Positions 1-9,701 of a DNA stretch of 64,000 nucleotides are shown here, one piece after another. Source of the DNA: Candidatus Binatia bacterium (GTDB lineage Bacteria > Vulcanimicrobiota > Vulcanimicrobiia > Vulcanimicrobiales > Vulcanimicrobiaceae); assembly GCA_035544215.1 (NCBI GenBank), contig DATKHY010000007.1, positions 1,426,001-1,490,000 on the forward strand, in the 5' to 3' direction. The stretch's first letter is position 1. Each line of letters starts with the position of its first letter. The notes under the pieces are model-generated. The model ran no database searches, was not told the origin of the DNA, and was given only the letters and a program-made list of their open reading frames with translations. The position numbers and the translations under genes are program-made.

Positions 1-3000
1 CCGTTCTGGCTGCATACGGAACGCGGCGATTTCGACGGCGCGTACGCGCTCGATCGCCCGCACGACACCAGCGCCTTCTGGCTGGTGGCGCGCGGCTTGC
101 GCATGCGCGCGCCGCGCTATGTCGCGTTCCCCGGTCTGTCGCTGCCCGTCATGCCGCCGATCGACGGGCGTTCCGTCGCGATGACCCTCGCGGGCGGCGG
201 CTCCGGAAACAAGATCGTGATGGCCGGCCGGGTCGCCGGGAGCGACACGACGATCTCGGGCGTTCGCTTCGATCGCCTGGCCGCCGCATTCGGCGGCACG
301 ATGGCAAGCGCGGCGATCAACTCGCTGAGCGCGTCGGGCCCCTGGGGCGACTTCTCCGGCGACGGCCTGTTCTCGCCGCAGCGCTTCGTCGCATACGGCG
401 CGTATCGCGGCACGTTCGAAGGGCTGCAACCGTTCCTGGGTAGCGCGATGCCGGCGCACGGCCGGCTTCACGGCACGGTCGCGGTCGCGATCGAGCCGCA
501 GCGCATCGTGGTGCAGGGCACGAATTTGTCGATGCAGCACGCGACGTTGCGCGGCGTCCCGATCTCGCACGCGAACCTCACGCTCGCGGTCGAGGGAAAT
601 CGTCTGCGGATCTTTTCGGCCGATGCCGGGGCCGCCGGCGGCGACGTCGTCGCGGCCGGTGAGTTCTCGCTCGCGGCGCAGCCAAAGGGCGGCGCGCTCG
701 CGCTCGTCGCGAACCGCCTGAGCGCGGCGCAGCTGCACGGGATCGGATTGCCGCTCGGCGCGGGAACGCTCTCGGCGGCCGGCAACCTCGCGGCCGGCGC
801 GTCGCTGCCGCGATTCGACGGCGGCGTGACGATCAGCGGTGGACGCGTGGCGAATTTCTCGATCGCAGGGAACGGCAGCGTGCACCTAGCGGGCGACGCG
901 GTGTCCTTGCGGCACGTCGTCGGCGCGTTCGGCGGATCGAGCGCACGAGTCGACGGGAGCATCGGATCACTGACGTCGGGCGTGCCCACCTACGATCTCG
1001 ATGCAAACGTACCCGCGGCGCGCGTGGCGCCGGCGCTGCACGACTTCGGCATCCCGAACTACATGACCGACGGCACGTTCAACGCGCAGCTCCACATCGC
1101 CGGCGGGAGCTTGCGGCCGCATATCACCGGTCATGTCGGCGTGCCGGCCGGGGAGATCAACGGCCTGCCGTTCGTCGACGGCAGCGTTCGCCTCGCGGCC
1201 GACCCCAGCGGCGTGAGCGTGCGCAGCGGCTCCGTCCTCGTCGGCACGACCGCAGCCGGTTTCGCCGCGGTGGCGCGTCCGGACGAAAGCGCGATCGATC
1301 TGCGCGCACCGCGCGCGACGCTCTCCGACTTCAACAATTTCTTCGACACCGGCGACACGCTGGCGGGGCGCGGAAGCGTGGAGTTGGCGGCGGCCTCGCG
1401 CGGCGGCCGCATCACGTCGAGCGGCAACCTCGACGTGCGCGGCTTTCGTTACCGCAATTTGCCCATCGGCGACACGAAAGCCGTCTGGTCGAGCGCGCGC
1501 AACACCGTCACCGGCGCGCTGGCGGTCGGCGGTCGCGAGGGCATGCTGCGCGCGCGCGGCTCGATCGGGCTGAGTCCGCAGGCGGATTGGCAAACGACGC
1601 TGCTGCGCTCGCGCTTCGACGTGCGCGGCGACATCCGCAATCTCGACCTGGCGCTCTGGATTCCGGCGCTCGGGATGCAGAGCGTTCCGCTCACCGGGCG
1701 CGCCTCCGGCGACGCGACCATCCGCGGACTCTTTCCGTTGCTCGACGTCCGCGCGAACGCGCAGATTCAGAACGGGACGCTCGGACCACTCACGCTCGAC
1801 AGCGCGAACGTCGCGCTGCACGCCGCGGGGCGACGCATCGTCGTCGATAGCGCGCAGCTGGCGACGCCCGAGATCACGGCCTCCGCCGCCGGCAGCTTCG
1901 GCCTGGGCCGGAACGATCCACTCGACCTCCGCGTGCATGCGGCAACGGATGACTTTGCCAAGCTCGTGTACGACGTCTCGCGCGTTCGCCTCCCGATCAG
2001 CGGGTCGTTCGAGTCGACGCTGAACATCGCGGGCACGTATCGCTCCCCGACCTTTCTCGCGGGCTTCGACGCGACCGGCGTGCGTGCGTACGGAATTCCG
2101 ATATCGTCGCTGTTCGGCGAATTTCGGTTGCAGCGGCGGACGCTGGAGCTCTCGAACGCGGGTGCGACGCTGGGCAGCGGCGAGGTAACGCTGGCCGGTG
2201 CGCTCCCGCTCTCGCTCGAGCCGTTGCGACTGCCTCCCGATCAGCCGATGAGCTTCGACGTCGACGTCGTGGGTCTCGATCCGGCGCTTTTCGAAGCGAC
2301 GCTCGGCAACGAGACGAAGATGGGCGGCCTAATCGACGGCCATATCGGCCTCTCCGGAACGGTGCGCCAACCGTTCATCGTCGGCCGGCTCGCGCTCGCG
2401 CACGGATCGTATTCGAGCGCGCTCGAGCGCACCCCGATCACGCAGCTCGCCGGGGCGATCGCGTTCGACCGCGTCTCTGCTTCCGTCGATCGCCTGAGCG
2501 GACGGCTCGGCAGCGGGATCGCGCAACTCTCCGGGCGAGTCGCCTTCCCGAACGGGTTCGCCGGCGGTACGTCCACGCTGCACTTTGCCGGCGTCGCGCG
2601 CGGCGCGCAGCTCGACCTCCCCGCGTACGGCAGCGGCACGCTCGACGCGAAGATCGCCCTCGACAAGAAGTCGGAGACCGCGCCGCTCCTCTCCGGCGAC
2701 GTCACGCTCAGCAACGCGACGCTGCCGTTCGCGACCTTCATCAAGGCGGCACAGGGCGCGGCGTCGCCGAGCCTTCCGCCGCTGCCGCTCACATTCGACT
2801 TGCGCGCCACCGCCGGGAAGAACGTGCGCGTCCGCGGCAACGGTTACGGCGCCGGCCTCGACATCGGGGCCAGCGGCTCGGTGACGCTTGGGGGCACGCT
2901 GGCGTCGCCCACGCTGGCGGGGACCGTCGCCTCAACTGGCGGGACGCTGACCTACTTCGACCGCGCCTTCCGCGTGCAGGAGGGCAACGTGCAGTTCACC

Positions 3001-3735
3001 CCCGCCGACGGCGTCCTGCCGGCGCTGCACGCCGTTGCCAGCAGCACCGTCGTCAACCCCGATCCCGACCGCGCGCGCAATCCCTACGGCAGCGTCGACA
3101 TCACGATTCGGGTCGACGGCCCTATCCAAGGCCTCAAGATCGGGCTCACGTCGAATCCGCCCGGTTACAACCGGGACGAGATCCTGGGATTGATCGCGCC
3201 GTTCGGCGGCTTCGTCAACGGGATCGCGTTCAGCCGTCAGTCGATGCTAGCGCCGCGCCAGCCGAGCGGCATCACGCCGCTTGGTGCGCTCTCGCCGATT
3301 CCGAACGTCGATCTGGCGCAGCGCAGCTCGATCACCGTGGGGCAAGAAGCCTTCAATATACTGAACGCGCAGTTTGCGGCGAGCCTGCTCGGCCCGGTAG
3401 AAAGCACGCTCGGTCAGGGCCTTGGACTGTCGAGCGTCAACCTCACGCTCGGCTACTACGGAAACGTCGGGGTCACGGCCACGCGCCTTCTCGGCAAAGC
3501 CGTCAGCGCGGTCTATGCGGTGACCTTCGGGATACCCCAGGTTCAGTCGTTCGGACTCATGGTCCAACCCAGCCCGGTCACAAGCGCGACGCTGAACTTC
3601 TTCTATCAGAGTGGACCCACGAAGCTGCTGCAGCTGCCGAGCTCGCCGGTGGGGTATAATGCGGGCTACACGGTGGCCCAGCCGCTGATCGGGAACAGCG
3701 GCTTCAGCCTTACCGTTCAGCGCTATTTCTGGTGA
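1..3735 (+). CDS. tamB: TamB-like translocation/assembly module protein (5' partial)
   Basis: The reading frame is open from base 1, so the start lies upstream; a GTG at 85 is in frame but is probably internal. The product is over 1,200 residues of repetitive beta-strand sequence rich in Gly, Ala, Ser and Thr, as in the AsmA/TamB (DUF490) superfamily. The last ~350 residues fit the TamB C-terminal domain, with the stretch GYNRDEILGLIAPFGG and an aromatic C-terminus (QRYFW). TamB-type proteins span the periplasm and move phospholipid between membranes or help insert outer-membrane proteins. The stop is followed at once by the bamA leader, which supports a role in outer-membrane assembly. Family assignment is firm; which function applies here is inference. 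Confidence 0.88.
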   Translation, partial: PFWLHTERGDFDGAYALDRPHDTSAFWLVARGLRMRAPRYVAFPGLSLPVMPPIDGRSVAMTLAGGGSGNKIVMAGRVAGSDTTISGVRFDRLAAAFGGTMASAAINSLSASGPWGDFSGDGLFSPQRFVAYGAYRGTFEGLQPFLGSAMPAHGRLHGTVAVAIEPQRIVVQGTNLSMQHATLRGVPISHANLTLAVEGNRLRIFSADAGAAGGDVVAAGEFSLAAQPKGGALALVANRLSAAQLHGIGLPLGAGTLSAAGNLAAGASLPRFDGGVTISGGRVANFSIAGNGSVHLAGDAVSLRHVVGAFGGSSARVDGSIGSLTSGVPTYDLDANVPAARVAPALHDFGIPNYMTDGTFNAQLHIAGGSLRPHITGHVGVPAGEINGLPFVDGSVRLAADPSGVSVRSGSVLVGTTAAGFAAVARPDESAIDLRAPRATLSDFNNFFDTGDTLAGRGSVELAAASRGGRITSSGNLDVRGFRYRNLPIGDTKAVWSSARNTVTGALAVGGREGMLRARGSIGLSPQADWQTTLLRSRFDVRGDIRNLDLALWIPALGMQSVPLTGRASGDATIRGLFPLLDVRANAQIQNGTLGPLTLDSANVALHAAGRRIVVDSAQLATPEITASAAGSFGLGRNDPLDLRVHAATDDFAKLVYDVSRVRLPISGSFESTLNIAGTYRSPTFLAGFDATGVRAYGIPISSLFGEFRLQRRTLELSNAGATLGSGEVTLAGALPLSLEPLRLPPDQPMSFDVDVVGLDPALFEATLGNETKMGGLIDGHIGLSGTVRQPFIVGRLALAHGSYSSALERTPITQLAGAIAFDRVSASVDRLSGRLGSGIAQLSGRVAFPNGFAGGTSTLHFAGVARGAQLDLPAYGSGTLDAKIALDKKSETAPLLSGDVTLSNATLPFATFIKAAQGAASPSLPPLPLTFDLRATAGKNVRVRGNGYGAGLDIGASGSVTLGGTLASPTLAGTVASTGGTLTYFDRAFRVQEGNVQFTPADGVLPALHAVASSTVVNPDPDRARNPYGSVDITIRVDGPIQGLKIGLTSNPPGYNRDEILGLIAPFGGFVNGIAFSRQSMLAPRQPSGITPLGALSPIPNVDLAQRSSITVGQEAFNILNAQFAASLLGPVESTLGQGLGLSSVNLTLGYYGNVGVTATRLLGKAVSAVYAVTFGIPQVQSFGLMVQPSPVTSATLNFFYQSGPTKLLQLPSSPVGYNAGYTVAQPLIGNSGFSLTVQRYFW

Positions 3736-3903
3736 ATGGGTATTGGATTAAGCACACGTTCAGGCTTGCGGCGCGAGCAAGGACCCCGGGTGAGGGGGGC
3801 GGAACAGGGCGTGCCGGGTCGCGCGCGATACGCTTGCGCGTGGCGGCCCGTGGCTTTTTTGCCCTTGCGAACCCACTTGGAAGATCGAGGACGGCTTTTT
3901 CGA
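3736..3903 (+). promoter_or_regulatory. bamA leader with terminator-like hairpin
   Basis: This 168-base gap between the tamB stop and the preferred bamA ATG is open in the bamA frame (an ATG at 3736 touches the tamB stop), but the encoded stretch is Arg/Gly-rich and precedes the signal sequence, so I treat it as non-coding. It holds a GC-rich interrupted inverted repeat (about 3815-3850, CCGGG and CGCGC arms pairing with GCGCG and CCCG) followed by six T (3855-3860), the look of an intrinsic terminator or attenuator. The AGATCGAGGAC purine stretch near 3882-3892 supplies the bamA ribosome binding site. Confidence 0.35.
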
Positions 3904-6162
3904 ATGACCTTTGACCCCGGGCGGCGTTTGGGCGCGTTGAAATGGTGGTTCGGCGTCGTGCTCCCGCTGATCGCGGTAACAGGGCTGAGCATCGCTCCGG
4001 CATCCTCCGCGACGGCGCCGAAGATCGTGTCGGTCGACGTCACCGGCAACCTCCATGTCCCCACGCAGACGATCATGTCGGTCACCGCGGCCCGCCCCGG
4101 CCAGCCGTACAATCCGAAGGTCGTCCAGGAGGACCTGGCGCGCATCAACGCGCTCGGCTACTTCGCGGACATCGCGCCCCCGCTGGTCCGCCAGCGGCCG
4201 AACGGCATCGCCATCACCTATCGCGTCGTCGAAAACCCGGTGCTGACGAAGATCCTGTTTACGGGCAACGCGAAGGTCCCCAGCGATACGCTGCAGGCGC
4301 TGATGGACCTTTCGGTCGGCCAGGTGTTCAATACGAACACGTTTCGAGAAGACGTTCTCAAGATCAACAACTACTACGAGCGCATCGGATACGGTGGTCA
4401 GGTACCGACCCACGTGAAGGACGTCCACATCGATCCGCAGAGCGGCGTCTTGACGCTGACGATCCAGGAGGGACTCGTCGTCACGCACATCATCATCGGC
4501 GGCGACGCGCTGCTCCCGCCGCCGTTCATCCTTCCTCACCTCACGCTGAAGGTCGGCAGCGTATACTCCGACGCCGTGCGCGACGCCGACTACAAGGCGC
4601 TGCAGAAGTTCTACGAGGACAAGCTCCACCTCGAGCTCGGAAACTTCGAGGGCGGCATCGTGCCGTCGTCGATCAACCTGCAAGCCGGCACCGCTGAGGT
4701 GCGCTACAATATCTATGTTGCGCGCATCGCGGTCGTCGAAGTGACCGGCAACACGCGCACGAAGGACGTCGTGATCCGCCGCGAGCTGCGCGAGCGGCCC
4801 GGCATGGTGCTCAACACCGACGCGATCAAGCGCGACTACGAGCGCCTCAACGCGCTCAACTTCTTCTCCAAGGTCGAGCCGGACGTCAAACCGGGACCCG
4901 ACCCGAAGAAGCCGCAGGACGTGACGCTCGTGTGGCACGTCACCGAGCAGCGCACCGCGCAGGCCTCGCTCGGCTTCGGCTATTCGGGCGGACTCACCGG
5001 CCTGGGGCTATACGGAACGCTCGGCTTCTCGGACAACAACCTGCACGGGACGGGCAACTCGGCGGGCATCCAGTTCGAAGAGGGAGCTCGCACGGGCGTG
5101 GCTCAGATCACCGCCTCGGTCCCCTATCTGACCAACTCGCCGCAGGGCCAAAAGTACACGGCCGGAGCGTCGCTCTTCACGAATCACACGACGTACTACT
5201 ATCCGATCTACAGCATCGCGGGCACCGGGCAGTCGGTCGCCCAGCGCGGACAGATTCCGATTCCCGTCACGCTGTACCCGAGCTCGAACGCGCAGCAAGT
5301 TTCCAACGTCGTCGCCACCAACACGTCGAGCGCGACGGGCGCCTCGGGGAATATCGGGCGGCGCCTCAGCGATTACACGATCCTCTCGCTCTCCGTCAGC
5401 GGGCAGAAGATCCGCTACGACACGACGGTCCCGTCGCCGTACTACTTCCAGGGCAACCAGCCGAACATTTTCATCGGTCCGACGCCCGGGCCGATCAGCT
5501 CCCAGCAGCAGAACTACGGCGGCTCGTTCGGCATCTCGGCCTCGTCCATCGCGAACGTCAACACCGGCCAGCCGTACAACTTGGTCACCACCGGCCTGAG
5601 TTTGCAGTCGGTCACGCTGGACGACCCGTTCAACCCGCGCAACGGCGTCAAGGCGCTGCTGAGCACGACCTTCTCGGAACCGGCCATCGGTTCGAACTTC
5701 TCGTTCACGCAGAGCACGCTGGACCTTGCGAAGTTCTTCCCGGTGCTTAGGGACGCGACGATCGGCGTGCACGGAGCGGCGTATAACTCGACCGGGGTCA
5801 TCCCCCCGAGCTCGCTCTTTACGTTCTCCGATCAGCAGATGCGCGGGTATAACACCGTATTCTACGCGACCAACGCGTATCTGGGGCAGGTCGAGCTGCG
5901 CCAGCCGCTCGCGCTGGATCGCAGGATAACGCTCGCTGTGTTCGTCGACGAGCTGGATTATCACATACGCGGCGCGTACCCGCTGCTCAACCCGTACACG
6001 AATCGCATCACCGGCTATCCCGCGAATTGGGCCCTCTACGGAGATGCGGGCGTCGGCGTCCGCTTCGACGTGCCGCAGCTGGGTCTGCGCACGGTGCGCA
6101 TCGACTTCGCCAAGGGCGTTAATGGTACGCACACCAGCTTTGGAATCGGCCAAAGCTTCTAG
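3904..6162 (+). CDS. bamA: Outer-membrane protein assembly factor BamA
   Basis: BamA (Omp85) folds and inserts beta-barrel proteins into the outer membrane. I chose the ATG at 3904 because it places a hydrophobic signal sequence (KWWFGVVLPLIAVTG) at the N-terminus; starting at 3736 would add 56 Arg/Gly-rich residues. The product is 752 residues. POTRA repeats occupy about residues 40-370, opening with KIVSVDVTGNLHVP and including VVEVTGNTRTKDVVIRREL. The C-terminal surface-antigen barrel runs from about 390 to the end, with the final FGIGQSF ending in the Phe typical of outer-membrane barrels. Position after tamB and before ompH/lpx genes is the classical bamA context. Confidence 0.93.
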   Translation: MTFDPGRRLGALKWWFGVVLPLIAVTGLSIAPASSATAPKIVSVDVTGNLHVPTQTIMSVTAARPGQPYNPKVVQEDLARINALGYFADIAPPLVRQRPNGIAITYRVVENPVLTKILFTGNAKVPSDTLQALMDLSVGQVFNTNTFREDVLKINNYYERIGYGGQVPTHVKDVHIDPQSGVLTLTIQEGLVVTHIIIGGDALLPPPFILPHLTLKVGSVYSDAVRDADYKALQKFYEDKLHLELGNFEGGIVPSSINLQAGTAEVRYNIYVARIAVVEVTGNTRTKDVVIRRELRERPGMVLNTDAIKRDYERLNALNFFSKVEPDVKPGPDPKKPQDVTLVWHVTEQRTAQASLGFGYSGGLTGLGLYGTLGFSDNNLHGTGNSAGIQFEEGARTGVAQITASVPYLTNSPQGQKYTAGASLFTNHTTYYYPIYSIAGTGQSVAQRGQIPIPVTLYPSSNAQQVSNVVATNTSSATGASGNIGRRLSDYTILSLSVSGQKIRYDTTVPSPYYFQGNQPNIFIGPTPGPISSQQQNYGGSFGISASSIANVNTGQPYNLVTTGLSLQSVTLDDPFNPRNGVKALLSTTFSEPAIGSNFSFTQSTLDLAKFFPVLRDATIGVHGAAYNSTGVIPPSSLFTFSDQQMRGYNTVFYATNAYLGQVELRQPLALDRRITLAVFVDELDYHIRGAYPLLNPYTNRITGYPANWALYGDAGVGVRFDVPQLGLRTVRIDFAKGVNGTHTSFGIGQSF

Positions 6163-6190: not shown

Positions 6191-6994
6191 ATGAAATATC
6201 GGTCTGCGCTTTTCGCCGCCGCGGCCATACTGCTCGGGATCGCGTTGGCGCCCGGCGCCATCGCGGCCGACCTGACCGACGTCGGCTACGTCGATCAGGC
6301 CGACCTCGCCAACCTGCCCGTTTTCGTAAACGCCAACGGCGCGCTTGCGGCGGATAAGGCGCGGCTCGACGCGCAGTTCAACGGTATGGTCAAGCGCGCG
6401 CGCAGCGACGCCCAGCGGCAGCAGCTCGCGATGCAGTTCCAACAGCAATATACCGACCGGCAGCGCGAAATCGTAGGCCCGCTCTTCCAGCGAGCGCAGC
6501 TGGCGATCGCGGCCGTGGCGGCCACGCGGAACCTTTCGATCGTCGTCGACAAGCGCATCGTGATCTACGGCGGGCAAGACGTCACGAAGGACGTCGAAGC
6601 CGTATTCTCGAGTTCGCAGGCGATCGTTCCGCCGTCTGCAACGCCGCCTCCTTCGCCGATCGGCTTCGTCGATCAGACGGCACTCGACGGCATCCCGAAG
6701 GTCCAGAGCGCCAACAACGCGATGCAACAGTTCGAGACGACGCAGCGGCAGATCTTTTCCGCCAAGATGGCGCAGGCGCGCAGCGACAGCGACAAACGCC
6801 AGATCCTCAGCGACTACAACAAGACCGTTACGGATAAGCAGAATCAGCTGCTCAAGCCGCTCGTGGATCAAACGCGGTCCGCGACGGCCGACGTGGCGCG
6901 CAAGAAGTCATTGATCCTGGTCGTGGATCGCGCCGATGTCATCTATGGAGGGACGGACATCACGACGGATGTCCAAAATGCGCTCGGCAAGTAG
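6191..6994 (+). CDS. Tandem two-domain OmpH/Skp-family periplasmic chaperone
   Basis: The product has 267 residues with a signal peptide ending about APGAIAA. Two Skp/OmpH-like units follow: residues about 27-137 (starting VGYVDQADL, ending VIYGGQDVTKDV) and about 150-267 (starting IGFVDQTAL, ending VIYGGTDITTDV), joined by a Pro/Ser linker. Each unit has a short beta N-terminus, a long charged coiled-coil and a C-terminal strand. Skp normally has one domain and trimerises to carry unfolded outer-membrane proteins to BamA; a covalent double domain is unusual. The start is the ATG before the signal peptide. The 3' end overlaps the next gene. Confidence 0.82.
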   Translation: MKYRSALFAAAAILLGIALAPGAIAADLTDVGYVDQADLANLPVFVNANGALAADKARLDAQFNGMVKRARSDAQRQQLAMQFQQQYTDRQREIVGPLFQRAQLAIAAVAATRNLSIVVDKRIVIYGGQDVTKDVEAVFSSSQAIVPPSATPPPSPIGFVDQTALDGIPKVQSANNAMQQFETTQRQIFSAKMAQARSDSDKRQILSDYNKTVTDKQNQLLKPLVDQTRSATADVARKKSLILVVDRADVIYGGTDITTDVQNALGK

Positions 6995-8264
6995 CGCGCT
7001 CGCGCTGCTCGGTATCTCGGCGATCCTGTCTCTCGCGGGCTGCGGTCCGAACGTCCACTCCGCGTCGGTGCGCGGGACGGGCTACGTGCGGCTCGACGAG
7101 GTCGTGAAGCACCATCCGCTCTATGCCCAGCTCTCGCAGCTGGACGACGCGATCGCGGCCATCGACCTCCGCTACGCGGGTCCGCAGGTTCCTCTAGGCG
7201 CCAAACAGATGGCCGCGCAGACGGCAGAGCTCAACCGCGAGTTGCGAGCCGCGCAAATACGCGCGAACAAAGTTCTTGCACAGAAGCAGCACGACTACGA
7301 GGTGCGCGAAAATCAGGCGGTGCAATCGGCGCTGGCGGCGGCCGGCGTCCACGGCGAAGGCGCCCTGGCGGCCGCGCAGATGAGCAATCAATCGGCGCAG
7401 CAGGCGCAGCAGGCGGCGCAGGCGGCCAACTCCGACTATATGGCATACCAACAAAACGTCGTCGCTCAAGACAACGCGGCGAGCTCTTCGGTCGCGCGCC
7501 AGCTGCAGGCGCAGGCGGAGCAAAAATATCGCGCCAAGGCCGAGCAGCTGCAGCAGGGCGAGACCGACCTGTCGCTCCGCCTGACGCAGCAAGACGCGAC
7601 GCAGCGTCTTGCTATCAAGATGCGCCTCTCGAACCTCGCGATGGATCCGGCCGCGCGCAAGCAGGCCGAATCGCAGCTCGCAGACATCAACGCTAAAGAG
7701 GCCGGCGAGGTCGCGGCGCAGCGCAACGCCGACGCGGAGACGCTGCGAGCGTACCGCGCGCAGCTCGACAAGGAGACGGGCGCGAGCATTCGCTCGCAGG
7801 TGGGGTCGATCCAGAGCCAGACCACGGCGAAGCTCTCAGAGCATCGCAACGAGGTGACCGCGCAGCTGCGCGGCATCGGCCCCGCGGCGCCGCCGCCCAA
7901 TCTGTCACCGAACGTGCAGGCGCAGATCGCCAAGATTCACCGTCAGTTCGTCGGACAGTTCCAGGCCGACGCGAAGAAGACGATCCAGGAATACAACGAA
8001 ACGAAGAGCGATCTGGACCAGCAGTTCGCGGCCCTGCACGGCGCCGACGTCGGGGCGACGGGGGCGGCCGGCAAGGAGCTGGTCTCGCTGCGGAAGCGAC
8101 GCGGCGATCTCTACGCGCAGATCGTCGGACAGGTCCAGCGGGATGCCGCGCACATCGCGCAAGATCGGGGCTTCAGCATCGTCTTCGTCAACATCGACGC
8201 CGCCGCGGGCGGCTATGACCTCACCAACCAAGTCATCAAGGACGTCGAAAGCCAACACGAGTGA
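6969..8264 (+). CDS. OmpH/Skp-family lipoprotein with long coiled coil
   Basis: The product is about 431 residues with a lipoprotein signal (LGISAILSLAGC, lipobox LAGC), so it is probably membrane anchored. A Skp-like beginning (GTGYVRLDEVVKHHPLY) is followed by about 300 residues of Gln/Ala/Glu-rich coiled coil, and the C-terminus (DRGFSIVFVNIDAAAGGYDLTNQVIKDV) matches the closing strand of the Skp units in the neighbouring genes. It looks like a Skp domain stretched by a long helical insertion. The ATG at 6969 overlaps the previous gene by 26 bases; an ATG at 6978 would also keep the signal. A GGAGGG about 15 bases upstream slightly favours 6969. Confidence 0.72.
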   Translation: MSKMRSASSALALLGISAILSLAGCGPNVHSASVRGTGYVRLDEVVKHHPLYAQLSQLDDAIAAIDLRYAGPQVPLGAKQMAAQTAELNRELRAAQIRANKVLAQKQHDYEVRENQAVQSALAAAGVHGEGALAAAQMSNQSAQQAQQAAQAANSDYMAYQQNVVAQDNAASSSVARQLQAQAEQKYRAKAEQLQQGETDLSLRLTQQDATQRLAIKMRLSNLAMDPAARKQAESQLADINAKEAGEVAAQRNADAETLRAYRAQLDKETGASIRSQVGSIQSQTTAKLSEHRNEVTAQLRGIGPAAPPPNLSPNVQAQIAKIHRQFVGQFQADAKKTIQEYNETKSDLDQQFAALHGADVGATGAAGKELVSLRKRRGDLYAQIVGQVQRDAAHIAQDRGFSIVFVNIDAAAGGYDLTNQVIKDVESQHE

Positions 8265-8668
8265 AAACGCAAAAAAGCATCACACTTCTCACGCTCGCGG
8301 TAGCGCTGGCGAGCTGTGCGCCGCACAGCTCGATCGGTCTCGTCGACGTGCAGCGCATCGTTTCCAACTGGCCTGAGTATCAGGGCTATCAGACCCAGAT
8401 GTTCACGGAGGAGCGGTCGGTTTCAACGCGCCGCGAGAGCAGCGCGCGCAAGCAGCGCGACGCGTTCGACCTTCAGCGCAAGTACGGTAAGATCACCGAT
8501 CAGCTATCCGCGCAGCTGCGCGACGTGGCGGGCAAGATCGCGGCGCAACGCCAGCTCAAGCTGGTCCTGACGCGCGAGGGCATCGGATACGGCGGCGTAG
8601 ACATCACGGCCGACGTCGAGAAGGCGCTCAACATCACGGAAAAGGCCTCGCCGACACCGGGAACGTAG
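8261..8668 (+). CDS. Small OmpH/Skp-family lipoprotein
   Basis: This 135-residue protein starts at a GTG overlapping the previous stop (GTGA), implying translational coupling. It has a lipoprotein signal with lipobox LASC (VALASCAPHSS), a Skp-like opening IGLVDVQRIVSNWPEY, a charged helical middle, and the same closing motif as the neighbouring Skp units (GIGYGGVDITADVEKAL). Its length is near that of ordinary Skp, but it is lipid anchored. It is the third OmpH-family gene and fourth Skp-like domain in a row between bamA and lpxD. The role as an outer-membrane protein or LPS-pathway chaperone is inferred from family and position. Confidence 0.75.
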   Translation: MKTQKSITLLTLAVALASCAPHSSIGLVDVQRIVSNWPEYQGYQTQMFTEERSVSTRRESSARKQRDAFDLQRKYGKITDQLSAQLRDVAGKIAAQRQLKLVLTREGIGYGGVDITADVEKALNITEKASPTPGT

Positions 8669-8678
8669 CCCGTAGCGG

Positions 8679-9701
8679 ATGCTGGGAACGCTGCGGGATC
8701 TCGCCGCCCGGATCGGCGGACGCGTCGTCGGCGACGGCGGCGTCGAGATCGGCGGGCTCGCAACCATAGACGACGCGACGGCCGGCGCGCTGACCTTCGC
8801 GACCACGGAAGCGTACTTTTCCTCTGCCCTCGCCGGATCGGCGACAGCCATTCTGGTCGATCCGGCACTCGAGCGCGACGACGCGGCAAAGCCGCTGATC
8901 GTCGTGGAGAACGTCCGGCTGGCGCTGGCGCGGCTGCTCGTGATGCTGGCGCCGCAGGCGCCGAGCGGCCCGTTCCGGCACGCGAGCGCCGTAATCGAAT
9001 CGGACGCCGGCATCGCGGCCGACGTGTACGTCGGCGCCGGAGCCTACATCGGCAAAGCCGTTACGATCGGCGCAGGGAGCATCGTCGGCGCGGGCGCGTA
9101 CGTCGGCGACGGCGTAACGATCGGCGCCGCGGTCCGGCTCCACCCGCACGTCACGCTGCTCGCGGGCTGCATCGTCGGCGACCGCGTCGTGCTGAACGCC
9201 GGCAGCGTCATCGGCAGCGACGGTTTCGGCTGGGCCTTCGTCGATGGGCGAGCCGAGCGCATCCCTCAGATCGGCAACGTCGTGCTCGAAGACGACGTGG
9301 AGGTCGGCGCGAACTCGTGCATCGATCGCGCGCAGATCGGCAGCACGCGCATAGGCGCCGGCACGAAGATCGACAACCTCGTCCAGATCGGGCACAACTG
9401 CCGCATCGGAAAGCACTGCGTAATCGCCGCCTTGAGCGGGCTCGCGGGGTCCACGGTGATCGGCGACTACGTGAAGGTTGCGGGGCAGGTCGGCTTCCGC
9501 GGACACATCACGGTCGGGTCCGGCGTGACGATAGCAGGGCAGTCGGGAGTCTGGGGAAACGTCGCCGACGGCGCGACGATTTCGGGCAATCCCGCGAAGG
9601 ACCACCACGAGGAACTACGCCGACAGGTCATGATTCGCAAGCTGCCAAAGCTGTTCGATCGTGTCGAGGCTCTCGAGCGCTCGCGATCGCGCGAGACTTA
9701 A
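8679..9701 (+). CDS. lpxD: UDP-3-O-acylglucosamine N-acyltransferase LpxD
   Basis: LpxD adds the second 3-hydroxyacyl chain to the glucosamine nitrogen in lipid A synthesis, using acyl-ACP. The 340-residue product has the N-terminal UDP-binding domain (about 1-95) and a left-handed beta-helix of hexapeptide repeats (about 100-320, e.g. GAGAYIGKAVTIGAGSIVG). The expected catalytic histidine is His239 in QIGHNCRIG, the same residue number as in E. coli LpxD. The short C-terminal helix (KLFDRVEALERS) is present. It lies downstream of the Skp-like genes, as in proteobacterial skp-lpxD, and 10 bases before lpxC. Confidence 0.96.
   Translation: MLGTLRDLAARIGGRVVGDGGVEIGGLATIDDATAGALTFATTEAYFSSALAGSATAILVDPALERDDAAKPLIVVENVRLALARLLVMLAPQAPSGPFRHASAVIESDAGIAADVYVGAGAYIGKAVTIGAGSIVGAGAYVGDGVTIGAAVRLHPHVTLLAGCIVGDRVVLNAGSVIGSDGFGWAFVDGRAERIPQIGNVVLEDDVEVGANSCIDRAQIGSTRIGAGTKIDNLVQIGHNCRIGKHCVIAALSGLAGSTVIGDYVKVAGQVGFRGHITVGSGVTIAGQSGVWGNVADGATISGNPAKDHHEELRRQVMIRKLPKLFDRVEALERSRSRET

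Follow-up and report, generated by a model that had tools for sequence, protein, structure and literature searches.

In the phylum Eremiobacterota, a fixed three-gene set takes the place of the single small Skp gene. We analysed a window of 64,000 nt, the whole stretch of DNA under study, from a genome of 3.23 Mb (G000). Three forward-strand genes, here called A, B and C, occupy positions 6191-8668 of the window and are flanked by bamA (3736-6162) and lpxD (8679-9701), the same place at which Escherichia coli carries its one skp gene. Between them they encode four Skp-like units, as the original prediction had proposed: a six-frame search of the entire genome with the OmpH family model matched the four units of A, B and C, and gave no other OmpH match. 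The features of the locus are as follows.

85-3735, + strand: tamB homologue (Pfam TamB, 102 bits); context
3736-6162, + strand: bamA, with POTRA and Omp85 domains; context, start position approximate
6191-6994, + strand: gene A, secreted double-unit Skp, 267 aa (two OmpH stretches, 59.2 bits)
About 6191-6265, + strand: signal peptide of A (from the sequence)
6266-6628, + strand: unit 1 (u1) of A, with two helices (26 and 40 residues) between two strands (OmpH search, AlphaFold, Ala at the Skp A108 position)
6650-6991, + strand: unit 2 (u2) of A, with the layout of u1 plus an assigned third strand (OmpH search, AlphaFold, A108 position)
6969-8264, + strand: gene B, 431 aa, a Skp lipoprotein with a long arm; lipobox LAGC, Cys codon at 7041-7043 (sequence; OmpH 21.4 bits)
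7140-8130 (approximate), + strand: inserted region of B, predicted to form a very long two-helix arm (AlphaFold helices of the relative L063, mapped by alignment)
Near 7641-7661, + strand: conserved tip turn of B, MDPAARK (AlphaFold of L063, mapped by alignment)
7917-8240, + strand: C-terminal half of the Skp unit of B (Pfam OmpH stretch)
8261-8668, + strand: gene C, 135 aa, a small Skp lipoprotein starting with GTG; lipobox LASC, Cys codon at 8315-8317 (OmpH 42.4 bits)
8679-9701, + strand: lpxD, followed by lpxC, fabZ, lpxA and lpxB (Pfam; context)

The three genes are tightly packed. A and B overlap by 26 bases, and the start of C overlaps the stop of B by 4 bases, an arrangement which suggests that their translation may be coupled. 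The most likely start of B is the ATG at 6969 (MSKMRSASSALALLGISAILSLAGC), and not position 6936. Upstream of the set, bamA is the sole Omp85 match in the genome. Synteny of tamB, bamA and skp (85-6162 for the first two) together with a single Omp85 protein is the arrangement proposed to represent an ancestral combined BAM/TAM system (PMC5007114).

The assignment of the units to the Skp family was judged against the OmpH model of Pfam (PF03938), for which the curated cut-off is 32.4 bits. Gene A, with two separate stretches that bear out the predicted tandem pair of units, and gene C, the small lipoprotein that had been expected, both score above this cut-off. The B protein of the window matches OmpH over mature residues 293-400 with a score below it; among 25 relatives of B, 23 have an OmpH match at E≤0.1 (best 3e-10), and a PDB search with a profile of B returned OmpH proteins as the top matches (E 0.0014). 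The C-terminal motif YGG-x-D had been taken both as common to all four units and as proof of their common descent. Three units do carry it (YGGQDVT, YGGTDIT and YGGVDIT), but B ends in AGGYDLT. Since E. coli Skp also matches at its end (DITADV), the motif marks the whole family rather than a special kinship of these four units. Descent of the four units from Skp is supported by the profile scores, by the fold of A, and by an interface position that is conserved in both units of A and in C.

That position corresponds to Ala108 of E. coli Skp, a protein in which the monomers are disordered and fold upon trimerization, and in which the A108R mutant is fully monomeric (PMC7577714). Alanine occupies the equivalent position in 19 of 21 sequences of u1 (two Ser), in 19 of 21 of u2 (the exceptions being Ser or Gly) and in 20 of 21 of C (one Gly), and a nearly invariant alanine lies in the matching helix of B when the alignment is read by eye. 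Besides this residue, E. coli Skp (1sg2, 1u2m) shares with the set its location between bamA and lpxD, the OmpH profile, the fold of the A units, and a C-terminal DIT-x-DV strand and helix. The differences lie in architecture: E. coli Skp is one free periplasmic protein that trimerizes, whereas here four units are distributed over three proteins, with one covalent pair and two lipid anchors. The arms also differ in length, being shorter in A and C and about four times longer in B; the first strand and the A108 position are separated by 102 residues in E. coli, by about 77 in each unit of A, by 67 in C and by about 360 in B.

The set is not peculiar to the genome of the window. In named collections, the genomes closest to it are almost without exception metagenome-assembled genomes (MAGs) of Ca. 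Eremiobacterota/Vulcanimicrobiota, formerly WPS-2; nearly every genome among 60 relatives has three to five OmpH matches, and OmpH is present in 117 of 121 genomes of the phylum. From the genomes of relatives and the contigs of named genomes we drew 124 distinct loci. The complete order bamA-A-B-C-lpxD is found in 105 of these, the remainder being consistent with it up to their contig ends. A has two units in all loci except one, which is truncated by a contig end (123/124), and A invariably comes with B and C, the genes overlapping or lying side by side. Two genomes of family f11 that are 97-98% complete (G064 and G065) have no Pfam OmpH match, yet encode an A-like double match directly downstream of an Omp85 gene; their Skp set is strongly diverged.

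Two further observations concern the distribution of the locus. In families f14-f16 (L180-L188), lpxD is preceded by a fourth gene, which encodes another small Skp unit and gives a count of 2+1+1+1. Three MAGs titled Rhodospirillales or Proteobacteria (L143, L149 and L162) contain this Eremiobacterota locus at 43-52% identity, and their record titles are therefore probably wrong.

A tree of 84 units, built from few columns and so limited in its deeper forks, groups the units by position (u1, u2, B or C) and not by genome, with 4 label changes against a mean of 46 after shuffling. Such clustering indicates that the set is ancient, and the duplications are clearly older than the radiation of the phylum. 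The HMM search bears out the original prediction in that the units score to OmpH. It is very improbable that the genes are redundant Skp copies, left by an old duplication and retained as a block in a conserved operon with no special assembly. Skp duplications are common beside bamA in other phyla, as such an account would have it, but the fusion, the long arm and the lipid anchors are each conserved across Eremiobacterota, which argues for distinct roles.

How these parts may work together is best approached through A. An AlphaFold model of A alone, run with 94 relatives in the alignment, has a mean pLDDT of 95.2 and a pTM of 0.81. After a cleavable signal peptide ending in AIA-AD, each unit of the model begins with a short strand, followed by helices 26 and 40 residues long and then by another strand. 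Foldseek matched the model to Skp (1sg2 and 1u2m), Bacteroidota SkpA (8gl8) and an OmpH-like protein of Caulobacter with probabilities of 0.92-1.00 (1.00 for 1sg2 and SkpA), the E-values being only 0.015-0.13. A third strand is assigned in u2 and absent from the assignment of u1, as read from the secondary-structure string only. This is what would be expected of a two-thirds barrel, and we infer that the edge of u1 may lie open for a third unit.

We tentatively favour, as quite possible, a reading in which A, B and C together form the Skp-type chaperone for outer-membrane proteins (OMPs) of the phylum. Two units cannot close a trimer and two plus one can, which favours A as a platform completed by B or C. 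The two covalent units of A would provide two-thirds of a Skp-like trimer, and a single-unit lipoprotein, either B or C, would supply the third unit and tether the assembly to a membrane. Such an assembly is consistent with the invariant gene order and unit count, the clustering of units by position, the conserved Ala108 position, the open edge of u1, the anchors and the gene overlaps.

About 300 inserted residues interrupt the Skp unit of B, and B carries a lipobox, as anticipated for the second protein. To model the inserted region we turned to a relative (L063) whose A and B share one reading frame, reading the TAG stop as Gln merely to join the two into a pseudo-chain; no claim of read-through is made. 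The predicted B protein has a strand-arm-strand layout. In the inserted region, helices were predicted at residues 302-320, 328-374 and 383-473 of the pseudo-chain, followed by a turn at 474-478 and helices at 479-558, 575-617 and 622-660, and the pLDDT is 80-97 over most of the arm. Counted in residues from the tip, the breaks on the two sides lie at similar heights (about 95 against 88 and about 149 against 141). The simplest reading of the model is therefore a single two-helix arm with two elbows and about 170 residues per helix. At 1.5 Å per residue, such an arm would be about 25 nm long if straight. In one genome (G056), B is represented by two adjacent frames of 154 and 339 aa (L088, about 3045-4526, − strand), reflecting either a split gene or a sequencing error.

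The joint model is less informative about assembly. The A+B pseudo-chain has a pTM of 0.41, which leaves the relative placement of A and B undefined, and its secondary structure gave no sign of the B head joining A to complete the nine-stranded head barrel of a Skp trimer, the A part of the alignment being shallow. Foldseek matches of the joint model to coiled-coil and toxin structures were given no weight, with rmsd values mostly of tens of ångströms. Mutual information across 97 paired loci (effective number 66) separated A-B contacts neither from A-C contacts nor from background, and intra-protein pairs were not clearly better recovered than inter-protein pairs, so the method was uninformative here. 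The hetero-oligomer of the original prediction fits the invariant 2+1+1 count, but the co-fold does not visibly complete the barrel.

B and C could also form homotrimers, and a rather unlikely alternative is that the three proteins work separately. B and C would then be lipid-anchored homotrimers, A would pair with itself (three A chains, for example, making two trimers), and the set would act as a toolbox differing in reach and location. The lack of docking in the co-fold points this way, as does the conservation of the interface position in B and C, which are single units. Separate Skp paralogues are, moreover, the rule elsewhere. The expectation that one skp gene is the norm holds for E. 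coli, but Bacteroidota have two Skp genes (PMC10994853), and up to three or four are described for Negativicutes and other diderm Firmicutes (PMC5007114, PMC5491611). In Flavobacterium johnsoniae, SkpA forms a trimer within the T9SS translocon, and SkpB, a separate protein, is essential (PMC10994853). Separate working would, however, make it hard to explain why A has two units in every lineage without pairing to single units, and why B and C are its constant companions in overlapping or adjacent genes.

These comparisons also place the novelty of the set. Negativicutes and Halanaerobiales resemble it in having several Skp paralogues just after bamA, with tamB adjacent and the BamBCDE lipoproteins lacking; they differ in that their Skp genes, up to three or four, are separate, and neither a fused pair nor a long-arm lipoprotein is described in the portions of the two reports available to us (PMC5007114, PMC5491611). 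The Bacteroidota proteins SkpA and SkpB (8gl8) are likewise paralogues with divided roles, and SkpA is the structure to which A was matched above; they differ in being encoded by two separate genes, in that the SkpA trimer holds the N terminus of SprA, and in having no covalent double unit. None of the papers searched describes a Skp that is a covalent double unit, a lipoprotein or a long-armed protein, and our genome survey spanned this phylum. Multiple separate Skp genes are already known elsewhere, and the fused, long-arm, lipid-anchored set is a new variant.

The Bacteroidota example raises another alternative, since there the T9SS translocon includes a Skp trimer as a constant structural component (PMC10994853). 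The set could similarly serve mainly as a scaffold beside BamA or TamB, for instance with the B arm as a spacer or bridge across the periplasm, and not as a cage for unfolded proteins. The B arm far exceeds the length that a cage needs, the arms of A and C are shorter than those of E. coli Skp by the span given above, TamB and BamA adjoin the set, and neither BamD nor BamE was found in the genome of the window. We nevertheless consider a scaffold unlikely: no partner for it was identified on BamA or TamB, two canonical units with paired helical arms are retained in A, and the one SurA_N_3 parvulin-type protein present in most genomes may not suffice alone for all holdase duty.

The anchors bear on where the set would act. 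The lipoboxes of B and C are conserved among relatives. Across the phylum, almost all lineages have a lipobox in C. In the class of the window, B is a lipoprotein and A is soluble; elsewhere, B is transmembrane (TM)-anchored in several classes, and A either is a lipoprotein or carries an N-terminal signal anchor. Clear cases overlooked by our lipobox script pattern were classified by eye. Membrane tethering, as originally suggested, is thus a strong prediction, given the lipoboxes or TM anchors at the N termini throughout the phylum, and the lipoprotein signal peptidase LspA is present (12 of 13 genomes). The TM anchors would place those versions of A and B in the inner membrane. LolA (PF03548) was detected in none of 21 and none of 12 genomes, and was found in the E. 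coli, Caulobacter and Bacteroides controls; a LolA too divergent for the model may be present. With LolA undetected in these 33 genomes and LspA in place, the lipoproteins B and C may likewise be retained in the inner membrane. PpiD of E. coli, a periplasmic chaperone with an inner-membrane anchor, offers a functional analogy only (PMC2956729); it is of the parvulin type and unrelated in sequence. BamD (PF13525) was matched in just 3 of 41 genomes and BamE (PF04355) in none of 21. BAM composition and lipoprotein sorting look unusual in the phylum. Its cultivated member Vulcanimicrobium alpinus is enclosed by an envelope of the typical Gram-negative kind (PMC9758169).

Our data are consistent with a model in which an assembly of A with B or C, tethered most likely at the periplasmic face of the inner membrane, receives OMPs near their point of export. 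The lipidated cysteine precedes the first strand by a median of 8 residues in C and 14 in B, which would hold the head at the membrane surface with the arms pointing away. The helical arms would extend into the periplasm and cradle unfolded OMPs before transfer to BamA. The third arm would be short when contributed by C; when contributed by B, it would be the long hairpin described above, which could in principle span the periplasm. The set probably holds unfolded OMPs at the membrane surface, rather than drifting free with them. A more elaborate version of the model, in which an asymmetric, inner-membrane-tethered Skp of one double unit and an exchangeable lipid-anchored unit serves, through its 25 nm arm, as a fixed bridge carrying OMPs from Sec to BamA, seems to us improbable.

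The usual picture of Skp is that of a free, symmetric homotrimer, and the route by which OMPs cross the periplasm is still debated. A phylum with a fixed set of fused, asymmetric and membrane-anchored Skp proteins, in which the genome of the window gave no match to BamD, BamE or LolA, represents a natural case in which the chaperone may be stationary. The set shows that Skp can be divided into non-equivalent parts, and would give a direct route to asking what role each arm plays.
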